IMG/VR virus record: IMGVR_UViG_3300001768_000027
Coordinates: 1-37,693 of that record
Direction: 5' to 3' (one strand)
DNA length: 37,693 nt
DNA from: a virus
The notes beneath the pieces are model-generated. The model ran no database searches, was not told where the DNA came from, and was given only the letters and a program-made list of their open reading frames with translations. This document shows positions 13,752 through 37,693 of this stretch, one piece after another (positions within the stretch are counted from its first letter, which is position 1; every line of letters starts with the position of its first letter). Made by a program: the position numbers and the translations under genes.

Positions 13752-14294
13752 TTAGCGGATGCGGTAGCGGTTAATAAGCCCACCAACGTATTTCAGTCTG
13801 GTGGTTGCTGTTACTGCAATTTCAGATTCGCGGTGTTCGTACATGCTGCCGATTTGCAGCAGCATCCACGTTTTAATACTGGCCGGCACATCGTCGGCAC
13901 TGGCGTACCCCGCGCGGTATTGCAGGGCCACGCGGGCACCGCAAAACCGACGGGATACGATCAGCGGGTTGTCGCCGGGGTAAAACTCCAGCTCCCCGGC
14001 GGCAATGAGTGCCGCATGGTCTACCACTGCGCCGTTAATGCTGAGCGATACGATGTCGAGCGCCGGCCATTTCTCCAGCGGGATTTCGTATTGCCCTACC
14101 GGTACCAGCTGCTGCCACACTTGCGGCATCAGCGCCCGGCCGGTGGCTTGCTCGGCGCTTTCACGGGCGCTTTTGATGTAGCGCCGGAAAAGATCGTCGT
14201 GCTGGTCGTGGGTTACCACGCGGTCGAGTTTTACTTCTGCCAGCGTCAGCGGTTCAGCTTCCGGCCCGGTGATTAAGGTGCTGCGGATGTCCAT
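13752..14294 (-). CDS. Head-tail connector (HK97 gp6-like adaptor)
   Basis: A 180-residue protein beginning MDIRSTLITGPEAEPLTLAEVKLDRVV, then a long helix (DDLFRRYIKSARESAEQATGRAL), which is the signature of the gp6-like adaptor family: a short loop PLTLAEVK followed by the ring-forming helix. The middle strands (IVSLSINGAVVD and PLIVSRRFCGARVALQYRAGY) and C-terminal helix (VPASIKTWMLLQIGSMYEHRE) also match that family's order. It forms the ring below the portal. It sits between a small head gene and the head closure gene. Confidence 0.85.
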   Translation of the reverse strand: MDIRSTLITGPEAEPLTLAEVKLDRVVTHDQHDDLFRRYIKSARESAEQATGRALMPQVWQQLVPVGQYEIPLEKWPALDIVSLSINGAVVDHAALIAAGELEFYPGDNPLIVSRRFCGARVALQYRAGYASADDVPASIKTWMLLQIGSMYEHRESEIAVTATTRLKYVGGLINRYRIR

Positions 14295-14304
14295 GGGTTA
14301 GCCC

Positions 14305-14730
14305 TTAGCCAGCGACGATGGCGCCGGTCAGCGGTGCGGCGGGTTGGTAACGGGCATTCAGGCCCAGGCCAACGATGCCGGCGGTAACGGTTTGAGTGGT
14401 GTTGGACAGCACGGCGCGCACAAAACGGAACCCGCCGTTTACGTCCAACTCATCGGAGCGCAGGCTGATTTGCACCGGAGTGGATGCAACCAGATCAACC
14501 GGATCGCGCAGCGCTTTGGCATCGGTAAAGGCAGCCGTGGTGGCCTGTTCCAGCTGAATTTCTGCCGTTGCGCCGGCGCCAAACGCGCCCACGGTGGCGC
14601 AGTACAGCGCGGTTTCAAACTGGCCCATGTCGATGCCAGCGGTTTCATGGTCGCCAGTGGCGTGAACAGCTGGGGCCAGCTCATCGACCAGCACGGCGCG
14701 GATGGCCGGGTTTACATTTGCATTGCTCAT
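14305..14730 (-). CDS. Small head-associated protein, possible capsid decoration
   Basis: About 141 residues from MSNANVNPAIRAVLV. An upstream in-frame ATG would add five residues, but the bases of those codons form the ribosome binding site (GAGGGAA nine nt before the chosen ATG). The protein is Ala/Thr/Val-rich and predicted beta, with long apolar strands and no charged clusters or motifs. Lying directly after the capsid gene and before the gp6-like connector, it holds the place where many HK97-type phages encode a decoration or stabilising protein. That role is inferred only from position and composition. Confidence 0.7.
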   Translation of the reverse strand: MSNANVNPAIRAVLVDELAPAVHATGDHETAGIDMGQFETALYCATVGAFGAGATAEIQLEQATTAAFTDAKALRDPVDLVASTPVQISLRSDELDVNGGFRFVRAVLSNTTQTVTAGIVGLGLNARYQPAAPLTGAIVAG

Positions 14731-14814
14731 TGGGGTTTCCCTCATTCAGTTCAGTGTTTTGCAATGGGTGGGGCTGAATCAGTGCAGCGGGCCAGGCCCG
14801 CCGCACTGACAGGC

Positions 14815-16098
14815 TTAGCCGCGCGCCGCCAGGGTGACGAAGTGCGATTTGGTGGCGGTGCCGTTTTGCGGTGACACCGGCTTGCTCAGCTTGGGCTGAC
14901 CGCCCGCCTTGAACGTCCAGCGCAGCGCCTGTTCTGCGGTGTCGAAGTACAGGTGCATGGAGGTGTCGAACTTAATGCCGCTGGCCTTGCGGGCCATGTA
15001 GTAGCCCATCGGGTCGATCAGCTGAATGTCGCCCACCGCACCAATGGCTTTGGCGTGCTCGGTAAACTTGATCGGACGGCCCAACAGGAAACCGCCCGGC
15101 GCATTGGCAAAGCCAGTGGCCGGTGGTGTCCAGATGGTTTGGTCGCCAATTTTCATGGTCATCAGCGCCGGCAGCAGTTCCGGGTTGATTTCCCAGTGGG
15201 CGCGGGCCACTGAGCTTGGGATCATGCGGGCCAGCATTTTGGCAATGTTTTCCGGCAGCAGCGTGCCGGCCGCTTGGCTGGTTTCTTTGGCAACGGTTAC
15301 CAGCGCCTTGCTGTTCATGTAGCCCAGCAGCTGACCTGCACCGGTGCCGAAACGGATGGCTTCGTTCAGCTTCCAGCGGATGGCTTCCGGGGCTTTGACC
15401 GCCAGACGGTTAGCCAGACGCGGTGCGTCTTCCATAAGCTCATCAGATACGCGGGTGAAGGCGTACAGCTGGTGCAGTTTTACATCGCGGTTTTCGGTGG
15501 ACACCTCAGAGGATTCCATGGTGGTTTTTTCACCGCGCCACTTGGCCACAATGCCCTGCTGTGACCACGGGGTGGATTCATCCGCGATCATTTCCACCTG
15601 GTTGGCGCTGGTCGGTTCAGAATCGACCAAGCCCAGCAGGTCGGCATCGTCTTGCAGGGCCAGTTCGATAATGCGACCACTGAACGCTGGCGGCACCATA
15701 AAGCCTTCACCGTTGCTGCCGTTGGTGCCCATGCCATCGCCACCGGCGGCGTACAGGCGGTTGTCGATACCCTGGCCGGTCATGGCGTTGTGGACGCTGG
15801 CGGCGAAGTCGGCCAGGTCGTTAAAACCACGGGTGTCTTGCGCGGCCGGCGCTTTAGGCTGCGCACCACCACCAATGGCCATGGGTGCAGTCTGGCGGCC
15901 TGCCAGTTGGGTTTGCTGGGCTTCGAGTTTTTCAAACTCTTCCGCCTGGGCGATTTGTTTTTGCAGGTCGGTGCATTTGGTGGCCAGCTGCTCCAGTTCC
16001 TGCGCTTCGGCTTCGGTGTATTCACGGCCGGCCGCTTCCGCTGCAGCGCGGATTTCTTTGGCGCGGGCCAGTGCTTTTTTCAACAGTTCTTTCAGCAT
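14815..16098 (-). CDS. Major capsid protein, HK97 fold, with N-terminal scaffold domain
   Basis: A 427-residue protein. Residues 1-70 are a charged coiled coil (LKELLKKALARAKEIRAAAEAAG, EAQELEQLATK), the delta-domain scaffold that is removed during maturation. A linker of about 55 residues (Gln/Ala/Pro-rich, then Gly-rich) leads to the shell domain, starting near GEGFMVPPAFSGRIIELALQ. Typical HK97-fold features follow: the E-loop/spine region (TTMESSEVSTENRDVKLHQLYAF), FTRVSDELMEDAP, and the A-domain ending (GDIQLIDPMGYYMARKASGIKF). The gene lies right after the S49-type protease that should cleave the scaffold. Ribosome binding site GGAGAAAACC. Confidence 0.93.
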   Translation of the reverse strand: MLKELLKKALARAKEIRAAAEAAGREYTEAEAQELEQLATKCTDLQKQIAQAEEFEKLEAQQTQLAGRQTAPMAIGGGAQPKAPAAQDTRGFNDLADFAASVHNAMTGQGIDNRLYAAGGDGMGTNGSNGEGFMVPPAFSGRIIELALQDDADLLGLVDSEPTSANQVEMIADESTPWSQQGIVAKWRGEKTTMESSEVSTENRDVKLHQLYAFTRVSDELMEDAPRLANRLAVKAPEAIRWKLNEAIRFGTGAGQLLGYMNSKALVTVAKETSQAAGTLLPENIAKMLARMIPSSVARAHWEINPELLPALMTMKIGDQTIWTPPATGFANAPGGFLLGRPIKFTEHAKAIGAVGDIQLIDPMGYYMARKASGIKFDTSMHLYFDTAEQALRWTFKAGGQPKLSKPVSPQNGTATKSHFVTLAARG

Positions 16099-16177
16099 GG
16101 TTTTCTCCTGCTATGGGTATGGGTAGCTCCACCGGCCCGAATGGCAGTGTCGCTGGGGTTGAAACGGGGTTAAGGGG

Positions 16178-17071
16178 TTACTGGTCGAATGCGGCGAACA
16201 GCTGGTCGGCCTGCGCTCGGGTTAATCGGCCCGCCGGTGGCTGGCGGGTTTTGAGGTTGGCCAGTGTGGTTTCCAGCGGCTGGATGGCGTCGATCAGGCC
16301 AAAGCCTTCAGCTTCGTGGGCAAACCAGGTGCGGCCATCGGCCAGCGGTTTCAGGTCGGCTTCAGAGATGCCGCGGCCTTTGATAATCACGGCCAGGAAC
16401 TCCGCGTACAGCTGATCGACCACGCGCTGCACTTCAGCCTTCTGTTCTTCCGTTACCGGCACGCCTTCGAGGCCGGTTGATTTGTGTTCGCCGGTGTCGA
16501 TTTTGTGTACGTCGATACCGGCGTTCTGGTACATGCGGGAGGTATCCCACAGCACCGTGCGCACGCCAATGCTGCCGATGGTGTTCATGCGGTGGCTGGC
16601 GTAGATGGCGCTGGCCGGTGCGGCGATGTGGTAGCCGGCGCTGGCCAGCGTGCCTTCGATTTGCACCACCACGTTTTTGTCTTGCGCGGCATTGGCGATT
16701 TCATCGGTTAATTCGTGCATGCCGCGCACATCGCCGCCGGGCGTATCGGACAGAACGACGATATAGTCGATGGTTTCATCCATGCGCGCCGCCCGCACCG
16801 CTGCCCGCACATGCTGGGTGCTGGTGACGTAGTTGCTGGGCCACGGGTAGCTTTTGAGCATGATGCCGCGCACCGGAATAATGGCGATATTGTCGCGGAT
16901 GGTAATGGGCAGGCCGTTGCGTTCGGCATCGATGGCTGGGCCTGCGGTGATGGCACCGTATGCCTGCAGCTGCGGGTTGGCAGCGCGCTCAGATTGCAGC
17001 AGCCCTTCCAGTGCGTTCAGTTGGGTTTGGCCCAGGGCGCTGATGCCCCACAGCAGTGTTCGTTCAAACAT
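16178..17071 (-). CDS. S49 (SppA/lambda C-like) prohead protease
   Basis: About 297 residues from MFERTLLWGISAL. The frame could start 17 codons earlier inside the portal gene, but the chosen ATG has AAGGGGA seven nt before it. The ClpP/crotonase-like fold is visible: SDTPGGDVRGM (oxyanion strand, residues about 108-118), LASAGYHIAAP with the probable nucleophile Ser144, and TGEHKSTGLEG with Lys197, matching the SppA Ser-Lys dyad spacing. This family processes capsid proteins (lambda gpC type) by cutting the scaffold. Its location between portal and capsid supports that. It overlaps the end of the portal gene by eight bases. Confidence 0.9.
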   Translation of the reverse strand: MFERTLLWGISALGQTQLNALEGLLQSERAANPQLQAYGAITAGPAIDAERNGLPITIRDNIAIIPVRGIMLKSYPWPSNYVTSTQHVRAAVRAARMDETIDYIVVLSDTPGGDVRGMHELTDEIANAAQDKNVVVQIEGTLASAGYHIAAPASAIYASHRMNTIGSIGVRTVLWDTSRMYQNAGIDVHKIDTGEHKSTGLEGVPVTEEQKAEVQRVVDQLYAEFLAVIIKGRGISEADLKPLADGRTWFAHEAEGFGLIDAIQPLETTLANLKTRQPPAGRLTRAQADQLFAAFDQ

Positions 17072-18326
17072 CAGCGTTCCCCTTTTGCTGGATGGTGTTG
17101 CGGTTTTGGTTGGCGAAGTCAAGGCTGACCATGTTCATTTGCACCAGCCGCAGGTCGCCGCCTTCCACTGGGTTGCGGTCTTCCAGTGCCAGTACGTCGT
17201 TAATGCTGTAGACGCCCCGGTCCATCATGGTTTTGTAGTATTCCTGACGGGTTTGCAGGTCGCCGCGCAGCAAGCTGCTGAAATTTATTTTGTTGTAGTA
17301 ATTGCCGCGCAGCAGTTTTGCGTTGACTTCTTGCTCAAGTCGCACCGCCCAGCGCATCAGGCAGTCGGTGACGTATTCGATATTCTGAGCTTCGATATTG
17401 TTGTTGGTGCTGCGCTCCAACTCCCCGATTTTATGAGGCGGAACCCCATACCAACGCGCCTGCTCAACCACAGAAAATTTGCGCGACTCAAGGAACTGTG
17501 CGTCTTCCGGGGGGATGCTGACAGTTTTAAAACGCTGCCCAGGTTCCAAAACCGCAATACCGCCATTATTGCCGGCTCCGCGATGCTCTTTTTTCCATGT
17601 GTTTTTCAGATTCTTTGCCGCTGACGGACTCCACTCATCAGGGGTTACCGCGCCATCGGCCCATTCGATAACGCCGCCCGGCACGGCGCCATTGCCAAAG
17701 AAGGCGGCGCCAAAATGCTCCATGGCAAGGCCAAGGCTGATGGCCTGCCGCGCAAAGGCGATAACCGACAACCCCACCACGCCGTCGAGGCTGAAGCCTT
17801 TTAGGTGCAGCACCTGCGATGGCTTTAACCAGGTATTGGCCGCGCCGCCGTTGCTAATCTCATGAACAAGCTCACCGTTATTCATACGGGTGGGATTGAC
17901 TCGTTCCCAGTCAATCATCCATAGCGCGCCCGGATCACCATTGCGCAGGGTTTCGATTTCGGCCAGCCCATTCCCCTGTAGCAGCGCCGATGCAACCAAA
18001 GCCTGTTTGAAGTCAAACGCATTAGTCTCAGGATTTGCCTGACGATACAAAAGACGGTCTGCGCCGTGGTCGCCAGCCACTGCGCGCTTTTCACCATCTG
18101 TCACAAAAACCCGGTGCGGCATCATGGCGATGTGTTCGCTAATAAGACGCACGCACGCCCACACGGGGCTGTGGGTTAAGGCGCTGTCGATGGTGACCGG
18201 AACCCCCGCAATAGGCCGACGCAGCATGCCGCCGAACCAGCCACCGCCAGATTGCTGCGGGGCCTCCGGTGATGTGCTGCGGGCGTCGATACTGAGGCCA
18301 GCACCAATACCTGAGAACAGGCTCAT
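17064..18326 (-). CDS. Portal protein, HK97 gp3 family
   Basis: A 420-residue protein. It shows family landmarks in order: AGVPVTIDSALTHSPVWACVRLISEHIAMMPHRV near the N-terminus, the LYRQANPETNAFDFKQALV segment, LLQGNGLAEIETLRNG, the WKKEHRGAGNNGGIAVLEPG block, FLESRKFSVVEQARWYGVPPHKIGEL and the stem/crown end GVYSINDVLALEDRNPVEGGD. These are characteristic of the portal that forms the dodecameric DNA channel. The start codon overlaps the upstream small membrane gene as ATGA, and the C-terminus overlaps the protease gene. Standard length for the family. Confidence 0.95.
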   Translation of the reverse strand: MSLFSGIGAGLSIDARSTSPEAPQQSGGGWFGGMLRRPIAGVPVTIDSALTHSPVWACVRLISEHIAMMPHRVFVTDGEKRAVAGDHGADRLLYRQANPETNAFDFKQALVASALLQGNGLAEIETLRNGDPGALWMIDWERVNPTRMNNGELVHEISNGGAANTWLKPSQVLHLKGFSLDGVVGLSVIAFARQAISLGLAMEHFGAAFFGNGAVPGGVIEWADGAVTPDEWSPSAAKNLKNTWKKEHRGAGNNGGIAVLEPGQRFKTVSIPPEDAQFLESRKFSVVEQARWYGVPPHKIGELERSTNNNIEAQNIEYVTDCLMRWAVRLEQEVNAKLLRGNYYNKINFSSLLRGDLQTRQEYYKTMMDRGVYSINDVLALEDRNPVEGGDLRLVQMNMVSLDFANQNRNTIQQKGNADV

Positions 18327-18493
18327 TCAGCACCCCCGCGCGCCATCAGTAATCCCAGCAACAGCAGCAGGACGCCCACGGCCAGCATGGCCGGACCGGT
18401 GCCCAGCAACTGGTACACGCCGCCGCCAATCAGGCCCAGCGACAGCAGCAGGATGGTGTCCAGCTTGCTGAGGTTTGGAGCTTTGAGTTTCAT
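18323..18493 (-). CDS. Small two-TM membrane protein between terminase and portal
   Basis: A 56-residue protein with ATGA overlaps at both ends: its ATG overlaps the terminase stop and its stop overlaps the portal start, which makes it very likely real. After a short basic N-terminus (MKLKAPNLSKL) come two hydrophobic helices, about residues 12-27 (DTILLLSLGLIGGGVY) and 33-50 (GPAMLAVGVLLLLLGLLM), joined by a Gly/Pro turn. Small membrane proteins occur at this place in other HK97-type genomes. The function is unknown; a holin-like or membrane-attachment role is only a possibility. Confidence 0.8.
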   Translation of the reverse strand: MKLKAPNLSKLDTILLLSLGLIGGGVYQLLGTGPAMLAVGVLLLLLGLLMARGGAE

Positions 18494-20208
18494 AGTTCAC
18501 CGTCTGCATAAATTGAGCGTGCCCGCTTTTTCACCGGGAACAGAATCATCATTGCCAGTGCCATAATTGTGGCGACGGCAGCGTCGATTTTTTCTTTCAC
18601 TTTGGATTTGTCGGGCTTGATATTCCCGGCAGGATCAATATCGGCAACCAGATTCGCCATACACCAAAACAGCACCGGATTGGAGTATTCCATCTGCTCA
18701 TTCAGAACACGCAGCATCAGCTCTTTCATAGGGGCGGACATCGAGTTAAAGCCCTGCCCGAATTCGACCATGGGCGCGCCTTCGGCCAGCATGTCGTTTA
18801 CCAGCTGGTTGGAGTTCCAGCGGTCGAACGCCACCGCCTGCACCTGGAAGTAGCCCAGCGCGGTGCGCAGGTCCCGCTTGATGTATTCATAATCGACCGT
18901 TTCGCCCGGGGTGAGCTGCAGGTGGCCAGACACAACGAACCGCTCCAACGACTTGTCGCCCTTAGCCAGCCGCCGATCCAGCGCGCCCTGCGGCAAGTAT
19001 GCACGCACGAAGGTGCGGGTTTTTCCCTTGCGGCTGATGGTAAACGTGAGCGCGGTCATGTCTTCCACGCTGGATAAATCCAGCCCGCCCCACGCCGGTT
19101 CGCCTTTGAATTCGTCGTTGCCGTTCCACGGTGCCTGGTCGTCGTAGCCGGTTTCGCAGAGCTTGAGCCGTTCAAGGTTCATCCACTTGGCTTCACCACG
19201 CACCGCAATGTTCAGGCGCTTGGTCATAAACTCGATTCGTTCAGACGGGATTTCTTTGGCCATGCGGTACTGTTCGCGCATGTCGTCGGGGTTTACCGAC
19301 ACGCCCCAGTTGGGGTTGGCCTTGATCCACTCGCTTTCCTGATCCCATTTTTCGGGGTCGTCTACTGTGTAGATCAGGGCGAAATAACTGTCGTCTTCCA
19401 CCGCGCCTTCGAGTACGCGGGTGGCATAGTCGAGCTGATCGGCGTCCACGCTATCGGGAATAAAACCCGCCGTAGTGATAGCGATTATCAGCGGCTGCTT
19501 TCGCGCTCCACGGGCGGATTTGATAACGTCCCACACCGCACTGGTCGGGTGGGCGTGCAGTTCGTCAATCAGGCCGTAATGAACGTTCAGGCCGTCCATG
19601 CTTTTGCTGTCTTTGCTCAGCGCTTGCAGCCGGCCACGGTTGCGCGGACACACTACGCGGTCGGCGTATGGGCGCGCCAAGCTGCTGAGCTTGGGCGACT
19701 GTTCCAGCATGGCCAGCGCCGCGTCGTACAGTTCTTTGGCCTGGTCGCGCTTGGTGGCCGCAGAGTAAACACGCGGGCCACCTTCGCCATCAGCCAGCAA
19801 GCCGTAGCAGCCGACGTAGGCGATCTTGGTGGTCTTGCCGTTTTTGCGCGGCACCCGGATGTAGGCAATGCGGAACCGGCGGGTTCCGTCTTCGCGCAGC
19901 CAGCCGTAAATGTTAGCGATTTCAAAGCACTGCCAGCCCTGCAGCTCCAGCGGCAGACCAGCAAATTCGCCTTCGTACTGGCGGCAGTAGCCACTGAACC
20001 GAAACACGCGAGCGGCGGCGTTCTCATCGAAATACAGGCCACGGCTGCCAGCGGTTTCCAGATCACGAAACCAGCGATCCACCGCCAGACGAGTGAGCCG
20101 GCACACCGGAATAACGCCCGCGCGAACGTCCTCTGCGTACTGGTACGCCATGTCGAGGTACTTGCGGCCCAGATCGACCGCAGGCACCTGCTTCATCACA
20201 GCGTTCAC
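18490..20208 (-). CDS. Terminase large subunit
   Basis: A 572-residue packaging motor. The ATPase half has an adapted Walker A (VPRKNGKTTK, residues about 119-128), Walker B and catalytic Glu (YGLIDE, 211-216), and the coupling motif III (AITTAG, about 243-248). The nuclease half contains WGGLDLSSVEDMTALTF, with the first metal-binding Asp, and AFDRWNSNQLV. This is the HK97 gp2-like (Terminase_1) class, which usually packages from cos with help of an HNH protein; such a protein is encoded upstream. It starts within the last codons of the small-subunit gene (overlap of four bases). Confidence 0.95.
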   Translation of the reverse strand: MNAVMKQVPAVDLGRKYLDMAYQYAEDVRAGVIPVCRLTRLAVDRWFRDLETAGSRGLYFDENAAARVFRFSGYCRQYEGEFAGLPLELQGWQCFEIANIYGWLREDGTRRFRIAYIRVPRKNGKTTKIAYVGCYGLLADGEGGPRVYSAATKRDQAKELYDAALAMLEQSPKLSSLARPYADRVVCPRNRGRLQALSKDSKSMDGLNVHYGLIDELHAHPTSAVWDVIKSARGARKQPLIIAITTAGFIPDSVDADQLDYATRVLEGAVEDDSYFALIYTVDDPEKWDQESEWIKANPNWGVSVNPDDMREQYRMAKEIPSERIEFMTKRLNIAVRGEAKWMNLERLKLCETGYDDQAPWNGNDEFKGEPAWGGLDLSSVEDMTALTFTISRKGKTRTFVRAYLPQGALDRRLAKGDKSLERFVVSGHLQLTPGETVDYEYIKRDLRTALGYFQVQAVAFDRWNSNQLVNDMLAEGAPMVEFGQGFNSMSAPMKELMLRVLNEQMEYSNPVLFWCMANLVADIDPAGNIKPDKSKVKEKIDAAVATIMALAMMILFPVKKRARSIYADGEL

Positions 20209-34603: not shown

Positions 34604-34857
34604 AAACCCTGTTCCTGGTAATGGCCCAATACGAAGCCGCAGAAATCCCTTTAGAGAAACTCTGCGAAGAACACTTCGGCATGAAGCTGCCGCAGGCGGT
34701 GCGCAAAGCCGCCCTGCATCAGCTGCCGGTGCCGTTTTACAAAAAGGCTGGTAAATCCGGCTACTTCTGCAGCGTGCAGGACTGGGCGGATTATCTGGAC
34801 AAGCAAGCACAGGAAGCGCGGCTGGAATGGGGCAGGATGAATAAAGCGGCGGTGTAA
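34600..34857 (+). CDS. PrtN-like pyocin/phage activator
   Basis: An 85-residue protein beginning MKTLFLVMAQYEAAEIPLEKLCEEHFGMKLPQAVRKAALHQLPVPFYKKAG, with a C-terminal DWADYLDKQAQEARLEW. The start T-L-F-L-x-M-A-Q-Y-E and the LxxWADYLD end are the pattern of the pyocin activator PrtN family. In Pseudomonas, PrtN activates pyocin genes after SOS; in phages such proteins sit near the integrase and may act on late or excision genes. It is the last gene before the cassette array, and its stop overlaps the array's first TAAC. Confidence 0.82.
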   Translation: MKTLFLVMAQYEAAEIPLEKLCEEHFGMKLPQAVRKAALHQLPVPFYKKAGKSGYFCSVQDWADYLDKQAQEARLEWGRMNKAAV

Positions 34858-34873
34858 CCCAAAGCCTTGTTAT
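34853..34873 (+). repeat. Left junction of the cassette array (stem-less att-like site)
   Basis: Directly over the prtN-like stop is TGTAACCCAAAG, then CCTTGTTAT (GTTAT at 34869-34873). It has the outer ends of the attC sites of this array (TAACCC...TTGTTAT) without the central stem-loop. It could be a deleted attC, or the original insertion target. Confidence 0.55.
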
Positions 34874-34891
34874 TTTTTTGAGAGATAAAAG

Positions 34892-35104
34892 ATGGATATT
34901 GATTCAGCATTTGAACGATTTATAGAGTTCCCAAGCAACTCAAAACAGTATGTAACGAGCGTAAGCGCAAAACTGTTTGCTAAACATTGCATCGAAAAGC
35001 TGGAAGCGGCAATACGCGAAACGATAGAAGACAATTTGCACTTGGCAGACGGTGACAACTGCACGCTGGCAAAGCTCAAGAAAGCGATAAATTACGATGA
35101 CTAA
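34892..35104 (+). CDS. Cassette 1 gene a, small acidic protein
   Basis: A 70-residue, mostly helical and acidic protein (MDIDSAFERFIEFPSNSKQYVTSVSAKLFAKHCIEKLEAAIRETIEDN, ending KLKKAINYDD). A TGAGAG ribosome binding site lies about eight nt upstream, inside the cassette. No known family recognised. It shares eight bases with the next gene of the same cassette, so the two are probably co-translated; a two-gene cassette may be a toxin-antitoxin or a modified-target pair, but no such family is recognised. Confidence 0.72.
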   Translation: MDIDSAFERFIEFPSNSKQYVTSVSAKLFAKHCIEKLEAAIRETIEDNLHLADGDNCTLAKLKKAINYDD

Positions 35105-35216
35105 GGAGGTAATAGCAAAAGTAATTTGTGCTAGCTGCGGCTGGACTGGCAAGCGAAAAACAGGGCAATTAGTGCTGTGCCCAGAATGCGGCAAGTACTG
35201 TGTTTTTGACACATAA
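35097..35216 (+). CDS. Cassette 1 gene b, tiny zinc-ribbon protein
   Basis: A 39-residue frame, MTKEVIAKVICASCGWTG with a second Cys pair LCPECGKYC; two CxxC pairs about 17 residues apart make a zinc ribbon. The start overlaps the end of the previous gene by eight bases, and TAA forms part of the attC end (ATAAC). It is too short for a usual ORF cut-off, yet start, overlap and attC-fused stop make it credible. Possibly a nucleic acid or protein binding adaptor. Confidence 0.65.
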   Translation: MTKEVIAKVICASCGWTGKRKTGQLVLCPECGKYCVFDT

Positions 35217-35263
35217 CCCGAATTTAACCGGCGGCGAAGCCGTCCTTTTGAAATTATTGTTAT
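35213..35263 (+). repeat. attC-like site 1
   Basis: ATAAC (35213-35217, over the stop of the zinc-ribbon gene) pairs with GTTAT (35259-35263). Inner arms AATTT (35221-35225) and AAATT (35251-35255) pair, and the central stem GGCGGC-GAA-GCCGTC (35230-35244, one G-T pair) closes it. About 51 bases, with unpaired bases mainly in the spacers, as in integron attC sites. Confidence 0.82.
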
Positions 35264-35282
35264 TGGGATGAGGATTTGAACA

Positions 35283-35525
35283 GTGAGTGAATGTAAAAAT
35301 TGTGAATTCGAATACGCTTACCGGAGTCTGTTCAACAAGCGGGCTGCAAGGGTGCAAGATTTGCAGAAAAAGGTGTGGGAAGAAATGAGTCGCAGAGCTA
35401 TGCCCGGAGCATATATGCAGCTTGTTGCCGACAAGATACTAGAGTACGGATGCGCTGAGATTGCCGACTTAAAGAAACAGGTTGAGCAACTACGTGCAGA
35501 AATAGCAGAGCTGGAAGCCCAATAA
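35283..35525 (+). CDS. Cassette 2 gene, Cys-rich N-terminus and coiled coil
   Basis: An 80-residue protein with a GTG start (GAGG ten nt upstream). MSECKNCEFEY carries a CxxC; the rest is helical, ending in a coiled coil (AEIADLKKQVEQLRAEIAELEAQ). No second Cys pair except an isolated GCAE. Probably an oligomeric small regulator or adaptor; family not recognised. The stop lies in the attC end (AATAAC). Confidence 0.72.
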   Translation: MSECKNCEFEYAYRSLFNKRAARVQDLQKKVWEEMSRRAMPGAYMQLVADKILEYGCAEIADLKKQVEQLRAEIAELEAQ

Positions 35526-35576
35526 CCCAGAGATAACGGGCGAGCGTAGCGAGTCCGAGTTGATTGAATTGTTATT
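35521..35576 (+). repeat. attC-like site 2
   Basis: AATAAC (35521-35526) pairs with GTTATT (35571-35576). The central stem CGGGC (35537-35541) and GTCCG (35553-35557) is followed outward by a TAAC / GTTG-type inner arm with unpaired bases on one side only. About 56 bases. Confidence 0.78.
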
Positions 35577-35594
35577 GCTCGCGGAGGGCGATTT

Positions 35595-35864
35595 ATGATC
35601 ACAAACCAACAGATAGAGGATCAGGATTACAGTATCAATGATATTGCAGACCTGAAAATGCGGCTTGAAATTGCTGAAAGTTCGCTCTTAGCAATTCAGG
35701 GGGCTTTGCAGCACGATCAGCCGCACAAAGCATACGAGATTGCGGTAAATGATCATGTCCGCATCACGTCTGGACATAACCATAATTGCGATGGTGATTT
35801 GGCTATCAATAGCACCGGTAACTACACCTGTGCATGCTATCTGATTGCCAGTGCAGAGCAATAA
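35595..35864 (+). CDS. Cassette 3 gene, small unknown protein
   Basis: An 89-residue protein with a clear ribosome binding site (GGAGG, seven nt before ATG). Acidic helical first half (QQIEDQDYSINDIADLKMRLEIAESSLLAIQGALQ), then HKAYEIAVNDHVRITSGHNHNCDGDLAINSTGNYTCACYLI with three Cys and two or three His that could bind a metal. The stop lies in the attC end. Family not recognised. Confidence 0.75.
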   Translation: MITNQQIEDQDYSINDIADLKMRLEIAESSLLAIQGALQHDQPHKAYEIAVNDHVRITSGHNHNCDGDLAINSTGNYTCACYLIASAEQ

Positions 35865-35932
35865 CCGCTTTGCTAAGGGGCTGGCGCTTTTTGCCAGTCC
35901 CGTGCGAAGCACGAACTTGAGCAAATTGTTAT
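35859..35932 (+). repeat. attC-like site 3
   Basis: CAATAAC (35859-35865) pairs with GTTAT (35928-35932). Inner arms TTTGCT (35869-35874) and AGCAAA (35920-35925) are perfectly complementary. A long central stem GGGGCTGGC / GCCAGTCCC (35877-35885 / 35893-35901) and a small second hairpin GTGC-GAA-GCAC (about 35902-35912) complete it. The clearest attC of the array. Confidence 0.85.
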
Positions 35933-35953
35933 ACACATTTTTGAGGACCTGCC

Positions 35954-36217
35954 ATGAAAGACCTGTTTGGAAAAAATGTTGAGATTAGCGGATGGACACA
36001 ATACGGAAACGGGAAAGCGGAAATCAGCGTGTTAGAAATACGCGTCGGAAGCTCCGAGACCCGGATCAGAGTGGAGATGTCATCTGATGAGATGGTGGCC
36101 TGGTGCAACAGTCACGGTCACCCAGTCACCGATATGCGTGATAAATATGCAGCAGACGATGGCGTTAGGCGCTGCGGTGACTGTGACGCACCGAAGCCCG
36201 AATGCGAGTGTGTATAA
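35954..36217 (+). CDS. Cassette 4 gene, small beta protein with Cys-rich end
   Basis: An 87-residue protein with GAGGA six nt before the ATG. First half beta (GKNVEISGWTQYGNGKAEISVLEIRVGSSETRIRVEM), then SSDEMVAWCNSHGHP and a Cys-rich end (RRCGDCDAPKPECECV, four Cys). A metal-binding tail is possible. Family not recognised. The stop TAA lies in the attC end (TATAAC). Confidence 0.75.
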   Translation: MKDLFGKNVEISGWTQYGNGKAEISVLEIRVGSSETRIRVEMSSDEMVAWCNSHGHPVTDMRDKYAADDGVRRCGDCDAPKPECECV

Positions 36218-36264
36218 CCCAAAACTAACCGGCGCGTAAGCGTCCGAATTGAGTGGCTTGTTAT
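36213..36264 (+). repeat. attC-like site 4
   Basis: TATAAC (36213-36218) faces GTTAT (36260-36264). Central stem CGGCGC-GTAA-GCGTCCG and inner arms ACTAA / TTGAGT with an unpaired G. The GTTATG end supplies the ATG of the next gene, so the attC junction doubles as a start codon. Confidence 0.8.
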
Positions 36265-36484
36265 GCCGTGCGTGAATTTTGGAAATGCGATTATCTGCTT
36301 AACTGCTGGCTGGTATCGACTGCGAACACCAGATGGGGGATATGTTTTTATGGATTGGCATAACTACCTTGGCCCGACATTCTTTCGCGACCGAGCCGCC
36401 AACAGGATGATCGAAGATTGGTATGAGGATGAAGGTATCTGTGCCGCCCTGGAGTGGTTTCAGCGCAGAGGCAAAAGGGCATAA
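36263..36484 (+). CDS. Cassette 5 gene, small aromatic-rich protein
   Basis: A 73-residue protein whose ATG is formed by the attC end (GTTATG). The sequence (LTAGWYRLRTPDGGYVFMDWHNYLGPTFFRDRAANRMIEDWYEDEGICAALEWFQRRGKRA) has a beta hairpin, then an acidic/aromatic helix. It resembles small phage- or cassette-type proteins with a YLGPTFF segment, function unknown to me. The only ribosome-binding-like bases are GAGTGG inside the attC stem arm, so the upstream cassette influences its translation. Confidence 0.72.
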   Translation: MPCVNFGNAIICLTAGWYRLRTPDGGYVFMDWHNYLGPTFFRDRAANRMIEDWYEDEGICAALEWFQRRGKRA

Positions 36485-36526
36485 CAAAAATATTCCCCGG
36501 CTCCGTCCGGGGCAATGAAGTGTTAT
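36481..36526 (+). repeat. attC-like site 5, also a likely terminator for integrase
   Basis: ATAAC (36481-36485) and GTTAT (36522-36526) are the ends; the centre is the perfect stem CCCCGG-CTCCGT-CCGGGG (36495-36512), with ATT/AAT inner arms. On the minus strand the stem is followed by AATATTTTTG, so it may also end integrase transcription. The integrase stop lies only seven bases beyond. Confidence 0.75.
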
Positions 36527-36532
36527 CAGCCC

Positions 36533-37693
36533 CTACTCACACACCCCTTCCAACCACTCCCAGCCCGCCCACTTATTGTTTGGCACTGAGTTTTCAATCT
36601 GAGTGTAACGCTTCAGAGAATTCCAGTTTTGGTGCCCGGTAACGCTGGCCACCCTGGGCACATCCCAGCGCTCACCATTCCAGCCATCCCGCTCAAACAG
36701 CCAGCTGGCGCACTCATGCCGCAGGTCGTGAAAGCGCAGATTATCAGCATCATCATCACTGGACCACATCCCCAAATCTTTCTGCACTGCACGGAACCTA
36801 TCGCCCAGAGTGCGGGAAAAATAAGGAAACCAACGATCATCACCTTCACGCTGAGGCATACTCAGCATAACGCGCCAGGCTTCATCCGGCACATAACACC
36901 ACACATCATTCGTCTGCTTTTTACTGGGGTGCTTCATCTGCCGCACCAGCACCCGCTGCTTTTCATAGTCCGTATCAGCGCGGGTTATCCGGCATATTTC
37001 CTCCTGTCGCCGGCCAGAGAGCATGGCGAACACAATCACCTTATCCATCGGGATCAGATCATCACGATGCATAAAGCGCCCGGTTCCCCACTTCAGCCGC
37101 TGCCCATAACAGTGAGATACCAACCTGGTGATTTCATCAACCGTAGGCCGCCGGTTACGCTCCCCACCCTTGCTGATGATACCCAGCTTGACCATGGTAC
37201 GCTGCGCAATATCCACTTCCTCATAACGGACATCACAACCCAACAACTCCCGCGCCACGGAGAACACACCACGAATAAAAATATAATGCTGATTCATCGT
37301 CGAAGGCCCAGCGCCCCAGGTTCGGCAGTGGCGGATAATATCTTTCGCCACAACATCACCCGCAATCAGCGAGCCAAACTCAGAGCCGGACAACTGCCGC
37401 AGCGTATCTGATTTCGTCTTACCCCACGGCTTAAGCGGATACACCTCCGCGATATAACGCTCAATCAGCTGCGCCACTGTTATGGGCTTTTCATCACGCC
37501 CTGAGATAGCGGCCGCAAGAACAGCCGGGTTAGACAACTCACCTTCACGCTGAGCCGCCCACTGCTCCGCAAGCTTGCGCTTTGCCCAGGTCTCCGCCTC
37601 ACGGTAAACCACCTTGCCGCCCCGCTTAATGCGGATCTCAGCACGGTATGAGATACTGCCATCCTTCTTTTTACGCTCTGATATCGTCGCCAT
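36533..37693 (-). CDS. int: Phage integrase, tyrosine recombinase
   Basis: A 386-residue protein. N-terminal SAM-like/arm-binding part (MATISERKKKDGSISYRAEIRIKRGGKVVYREAETWAKRKLAEQW, residues 1-100), then a core-binding domain, then the catalytic domain from about residue 180. Catalytic residues: R229 (LSGRRQEEICRI), K254 (MKHPSKK), H322 and R325 (FHDLRHECASW), H354 (VTGHQNW) and Tyr363 (LKRYTQIE). This R-K-H-R-H-Y set is complete. It resembles prophage integrases; the extra motif typical of integron integrases is not seen. The start is the last base of the window, so promoter and attachment site lie beyond it. Confidence 0.92.
   Translation of the reverse strand: MATISERKKKDGSISYRAEIRIKRGGKVVYREAETWAKRKLAEQWAAQREGELSNPAVLAAAISGRDEKPITVAQLIERYIAEVYPLKPWGKTKSDTLRQLSGSEFGSLIAGDVVAKDIIRHCRTWGAGPSTMNQHYIFIRGVFSVARELLGCDVRYEEVDIAQRTMVKLGIISKGGERNRRPTVDEITRLVSHCYGQRLKWGTGRFMHRDDLIPMDKVIVFAMLSGRRQEEICRITRADTDYEKQRVLVRQMKHPSKKQTNDVWCYVPDEAWRVMLSMPQREGDDRWFPYFSRTLGDRFRAVQKDLGMWSSDDDADNLRFHDLRHECASWLFERDGWNGERWDVPRVASVTGHQNWNSLKRYTQIENSVPNNKWAGWEWLEGVCE

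Follow-up and report, generated by a model that had tools for sequence, protein, structure and literature searches.

Near the right end of a temperate siphovirus genome, small plus-strand genes are separated by ATAAC...GTTAT hairpin sites, and the attC sites among these face against the genes. The array is probably an inverted-polarity CALIN, which cassettes would enter and leave at ATAA/C (the slash marks the junction), recombined in trans by an integron integrase. Four sites are attC sites by covariance model and anatomy, the ends of all cassettes but the first pair with their own partners beyond the core, and related phages differ by whole cassettes at the same loci.

The DNA analysed (the window) is a siphovirus record of 37,693 bases from IMG/VR, with genes for terminase, portal, tape measure and DnaB helicase, and the context of the array is a temperate phage. 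The array lies between a PrtN/excisionase-like gene, whose stop codon forms its left edge, and the phage integrase (Table 1). An Rfam scan of the window gave no match.

Table 1. Features of the cassette array and its flanks (window coordinates; R1, covariance model built here)
Feature	Position	Strand	Evidence
PrtN/excisionase-like phage gene	34600..34857	+	PF11112 5.5e-14; phrog_1300 excisionase
Leftmost site, 18-bp remnant (TAACCC..TTGTTAT), without L boxes	34855..34872	-	sequence; R1 just 6.9 bits
Cassette 1 gene a, 70 aa	34892..35104	+	no Pfam/PHROG match
Cassette 1 gene b, 39 aa, zinc-ribbon-like	35097..35216	+	Zn-ribbon matches weak, below cut-off
attC1, opens cassette 2	35213..35263	-	R1 21.3 bits on -; fold
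Cassette 2 gene, 80 aa	35283..35525	+	open reading frame
attC2, opens cassette 3	35522..35575	-	R1 30.9 bits on -, 5.5 on +
Cassette 3 gene, 89 aa	35595..35864	+	open reading frame
attC3, longer variable stem, opens cassette 4	35861..35932	-	R1 16.7 bits on -; fold
Cassette 4 gene, 87 aa	35954..36217	+	open reading frame
attC4, opens cassette 5	36214..36264	-	R1 32.4 bits on -, 6.9 on +
Cassette 5 gene, 73 aa, phrog_7990 (ordinary phage protein family, unknown function)	36263..36484	+	3.2e-31
Terminal site T, ATAAC..GTTAT flanking GC hairpin, closes array	36481..36526	.	like sites at right array ends in relatives; R1 7.6 on +, 4.3 on -
Phage tyrosine integrase, right edge of array	36533..37693	-	PF00589 1.3e-12; no TIGR02249 match

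To identify the sites, we used a covariance model, R1, built from 18 bacterial attCs only (class 1 plasmids, a Vibrio anguillarum array and a Shewanella array). The training sites were located by our own scan and not taken from a curated list; the strict attC pattern RYYYAAC/GTTRRRY failed to find bacterial controls, and a loosened pattern was used instead. Run over the whole window with filters off, R1 placed its top four matches on four array sites spanning 35211-36266, namely 36212-36266 (32.4 bits, E 9e-6), 35520-35577 (30.9 bits), 35211-35265 (21.3 bits) and 35866-35928 (16.7 bits, E 0.09), and the fifth-best match in the window scored 8.9 bits. The minus-strand fold of attC1 has textbook attC anatomy, with an R arm, 3+3 unpaired spacer bases, a 5-bp L arm and one extrahelical C; by R1, attC1-attC4 all fit the scheme of R''/R' core pairing with an imperfect L arm, an extrahelical base and a variable stem. 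R-box ATAAC stands at 35213, 35522, 35861, 36214 and 36481, and R-box GTTAT at 34869, 35259, 35571, 35928, 36260 and 36522, where the preliminary description had placed these pairs. The pattern ATAACC-N(34-70)-TTGTTAT occurs four times on the plus strand, always inside the array, and nowhere on the minus strand of the window, versus a mean of 0.005 expected from dinucleotide shuffles. attC1-attC4 are thus confirmed as integron-type attC sites by model and anatomy. The preliminary description had taken the whole row of sites for attC-type; the covariance search it proposed, run with our own model, bears this out for attC1-attC4, while the leftmost remnant and the right-end hairpin (7.6/4.3 bits) lack attC character under R1.

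In a closed cassette circle, both cassette ends form one R arm, so that the sequence after GTTAT should match that before the next ATAAC. Complementarity between the two ends of a block extends beyond the 5-nt core by 4, 5, 5 and 3 nt in blocks 2-5 of the window and by 0 nt in block 1, and the window total is reached by the true pairing alone among 120 possible pairings. Block ends in the window, block 1 excepted, therefore pair with their own block only, as closed cassette circles require. Across 42 blocks from 12 virus records and one prophage, the mean is 3.86 nt beyond the core versus 0.56 for mismatched ends, a value reached in 0/20,000 permutations.

Relatives were found by a terminase search, which returned phages at 100, 84, 81 and 81% identity, and by DNA patterns of the sites; the window integrase, used as a probe in viral contigs, found none. 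G003 carries an array with different genes behind the same PrtN gene, and the array of G004 lies beside a serine recombinase (named from its sequence) in place of the tyrosine integrase. Three further phages, G011, G012 and G022, have common flanks at two loci: locus (i), before the next conserved gene, holds 0, 1 and 5 attC sites, respectively, and the second locus, from the integrase stop to the tRNA-His attachment site, holds two cassettes in each phage, all different. Likewise, the junction between a cytosine methylase gene and phrog_5434 contains an array in G002 and is empty in G003 and G004, and the same methylase precedes the array in an Endozoicomonas prophage. Arrays are also located by SSB and replication genes. 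The relatives thus show the cassette-precise variation at the same loci that marks a CALIN, and not five genes in fixed order. Together with the R1 matches, this removes both outcomes that the preliminary description had named as counting against it, the lack of any attC model match and a fixed order of the five genes in related prophages.

Several other features of these loci were recorded. A Dcm-type cytosine methylase lies near the array in G002, G003, G004 and G010 (L081 11700-10837), 75-79% identical to that of G002; the predicted structure of the conserved neighbour gene (phrog_5434) reached pLDDT 61 and was set aside. No exact empty site emerged when the second G003 locus was aligned to the window. 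At locus (i), the leftmost small gene differs in three phages (L082 16880-17100, L083 11360-11110, L088 5280-5062): the sequence is common through the ribosome-binding site CGGAGAGCRGC, and the genes are swapped from the start codon on, with no attC involved. Another G003 locus (L015 10344-10446) repeats the zinc-ribbon ORF of cassette 1 with 78% nucleotide identity, next to a different upstream ORF. In G002, G003, G009, G011 and G014, unrelated genes stand behind an identical attC and leader (TTGGCGCGGGAG or GCGCAAGGCGG), a possible clue to how genes acquire attCs and cassettes form. Terminal sites of the form ATAAC..GTGTTAT around GC palindromes close the arrays of the window, G002, G004, G009, G011, G012, G014 and G022. 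The last of these (L088 25-307; L089 about 14000-20000) is a prophage that is integrated between tRNA-Pro/Arg/His and tig-clpP-clpX-lon and carries arrays.

The differences among phages could instead stem from homologous recombination in mixed infections, with real attC cassettes forming a fossil array and the attCs serving as passive joints. This accords with the lack of an integron integrase in the phages, with the attC-free difference in the leftmost gene at locus (i), with the recurrence of the zinc-ribbon ORF beside a different partner gene, and with the 91% identity of attC1 to a G003 site that precedes a different gene. We nevertheless consider it unlikely, because own-block complementarity is intact in most of the 42 blocks, whereas drift or homologous swaps between unlike sites would destroy it; moreover, the left-side neighbours of shared sites are unrelated, and the anatomy of the sites is conserved while their sequence is not.

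As the preliminary description had stated, there is no integron integrase: neither the window nor any of 11 array-bearing relatives passed the cut-off of a TIGR02249 search, and two weak sub-threshold matches are the phage integrases themselves. Its four attCs fall within 1.1 kb and an integron integrase is absent from the vicinity, so the array corresponds to a CALIN (at least two attCs close together without such an integrase), and the proposal of a CALIN-type cassette array inside a temperate phage holds. It is not a complete integron, which comprises an integron integrase, attI and Pc; neither attI nor Pc was found. Each record has at most one tyrosine recombinase, and seven of the 12 array-bearing records, some of them fragments, have no tyrosine-recombinase match. 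Given no integron integrase and at most one tyrosine recombinase per record, an integrase acting in trans is the best explanation, and a host integron integrase most likely moves the cassettes. The recombination of attCs from the likewise inverted array of phage PH101 by IntI1 (PMC9892861) lends this support by analogy. That a phage-encoded recombinase, for example the adjacent phage integrase, works the sites is improbable: the array does abut the integrase in the window, G011, G012 and G022, but G004 has a serine recombinase there instead, more than half of the array-bearing records lack a match (with the same proviso about fragments), and arrays elsewhere sit by SSB and replication genes. 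The Endozoicomonas genome, the only named bacterial genome with such an array, contains a C-terminal integron-integrase fragment alone, at a contig edge (L073 9513-10259), with no array seen beside it, which weighs against the favoured reading.

The array attC matches are antisense to the genes in 40/40 cases (window, relatives and Endozoicomonas prophage), a tally that leaves out terminal and unclassified sites, whereas those of the bacterial class 1 controls and of phage TJE1 are on the gene strand. The usual cassette form, with gene and attC in the same orientation and the attC after the gene, is thus absent. In a gene block that is 100% identical in G003 and G004, the upstream site is kept (91%) and the downstream site is not (68%, against an average of 65% for unrelated sites); a search for further copies of this cassette found only the two already known. 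Near-identical sites in different phages share 5.39/15 bases in their right flanks versus 3.98/15 in their left flanks (background 4.28 and 4.10), a modest mean difference (43 pairs vs 29), and in several right flanks 12-15 of the 15 bases after GTTAT are common while the sequence before ATAAC is not. Only two pairs of gene blocks, G003/G004 and G002/G014, are directly informative on polarity by co-inheritance. The antisense matches and the retained upstream site of G003/G004 indicate that the mobile unit is an attC plus its downstream gene, joined at ATAA/C on the stop codon, and not a gene plus its downstream attC. The preliminary description, in which each cassette ended in its own attC, has to be reversed on this point: the cassette begins with its attC, as polarity, the shared block and the flank test agree. 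A canonical array of genes each followed by its own attC would explain why attC and stop codon are found together, just as they are in ordinary cassettes, and why G004.4 and G011.2 have the last gene in common without the upstream site, which runs counter to a unit of attC plus downstream gene; set against the uniform antisense orientation, the G003/G004 cassette and the flank test, it is very improbable.

That the sites are hairpins or terminators of the usual kind in phage intergenic regions, attC-like by chance, is ruled out for attC1-attC4 and negligible for the array, given the R1 ranking, the pattern count, own-block complementarity and the cassette-level differences among relatives, even though terminal site T reads on the minus strand as a GC hairpin followed by AATATTTTTG and may terminate the integrase transcript. 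T may be an attI-like or attC site, its weak R1 matches falling on either strand.

In the inverted CALIN that we favour, each cassette would consist of an attC and a small downstream gene with its own ribosome-binding site, and its stop codon TAA would be created by the next junction, ATAA/C. Units would enter and leave at ATAA/C beside the phage stop codon or terminal site T, so that their genes would be added to the tail of a phage operon whose transcription already runs towards the array. An integron integrase supplied by the host or a co-resident element would recombine the folded attC strand in trans, and the cassette genes would probably be expressed by read-through. The cargo may be useful to the phage or the lysogen. 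The cassette proteins, of 39-89 aa, have no informative family match except gene 5 (phrog_7990), and no result supports the earlier suggestion of defence or anti-defence cargo.

Searched with the pattern of one phage attC type, on which this contrast between viral and bacterial genomes rests, viral contigs gave 7 stretches and 84,980 bacterial and archaeal genomes gave two matches, one of them true (the Endozoicomonas prophage). The other, in Oscillospiraceae, is a chance match. The terminases of Endozoicomonadaceae are no more than distant relatives and so do not fix the host of the window phage. Tentatively, gammaproteobacterial phages might share a cassette pool of their own, with a distinct, inverted attC type that loads accessory genes onto operon tails at fixed terminal sites, driven by borrowed integron integrases. 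If so, this phage pool would be separate from bacterial integrons in attC type and polarity.

Phages swap small accessory genes fast, by a mechanism that is often unclear, and a fixed-site cassette system would be a site-specific answer; in temperate phages it would also provide a route between phages and bacterial integrons. Bacterial arrays (class 1, Vibrio, Shewanella) share with the window the R''/R' arms, spacers, L arm, extrahelical base and own-end complementarity. In those arrays, however, gene and attC run in the same direction with the attC after the gene, and integrase, attI and Pc are present, whereas in the window the gene follows the attC and would be transcribed from the phage operon upstream. 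Inverted polarity shows that attC and gene need not point the same way where transcription comes from a phage operon. Two temperate phages, Vibrio anguillarum phage p16 and Shewanella phage M16-3, also contain arrays (PMC9892861), but theirs were captured from host integrons as pieces that include an integron integrase, while the site type of the window came up in viral contigs and a prophage and in no bacterial integron. A 2023 study described CALINs in phages, 17 of them among 10,705 phage genomes (Qi et al. 2023, PMC9892861). Tetrasphaera phage TJE1 and the other phage CALINs of that report resemble the window in having attC arrays without an integrase; TJE1 differs in being canonical, with attCs on the gene strand by R1, and for none of these phages did that report demonstrate locus-level gain and loss. 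The closest likeness is Pseudoalteromonas phage PH101/H101 (KR534323), in which small phage genes are interspersed with several attCs of the style ATAAC..TTGTTAT, an integron integrase is lacking and R1 places the attCs on the strand opposite to the genes (L116 25919-27987), although it is a virulent, 132-kb phage whose array is not near its integrase. IntI1 recombines two PH101 attCs with attI1 as well as it does attC-aadA7; the layout was called typical, its inversion was not remarked on and related phages were not compared (PMC9892861). In the open-licence literature, mainly at the level of titles and abstracts, we saw neither inverted phage arrays nor locus-level turnover described; on that footing, phage CALINs were already known, and inverted polarity and locus-level turnover are the new part.
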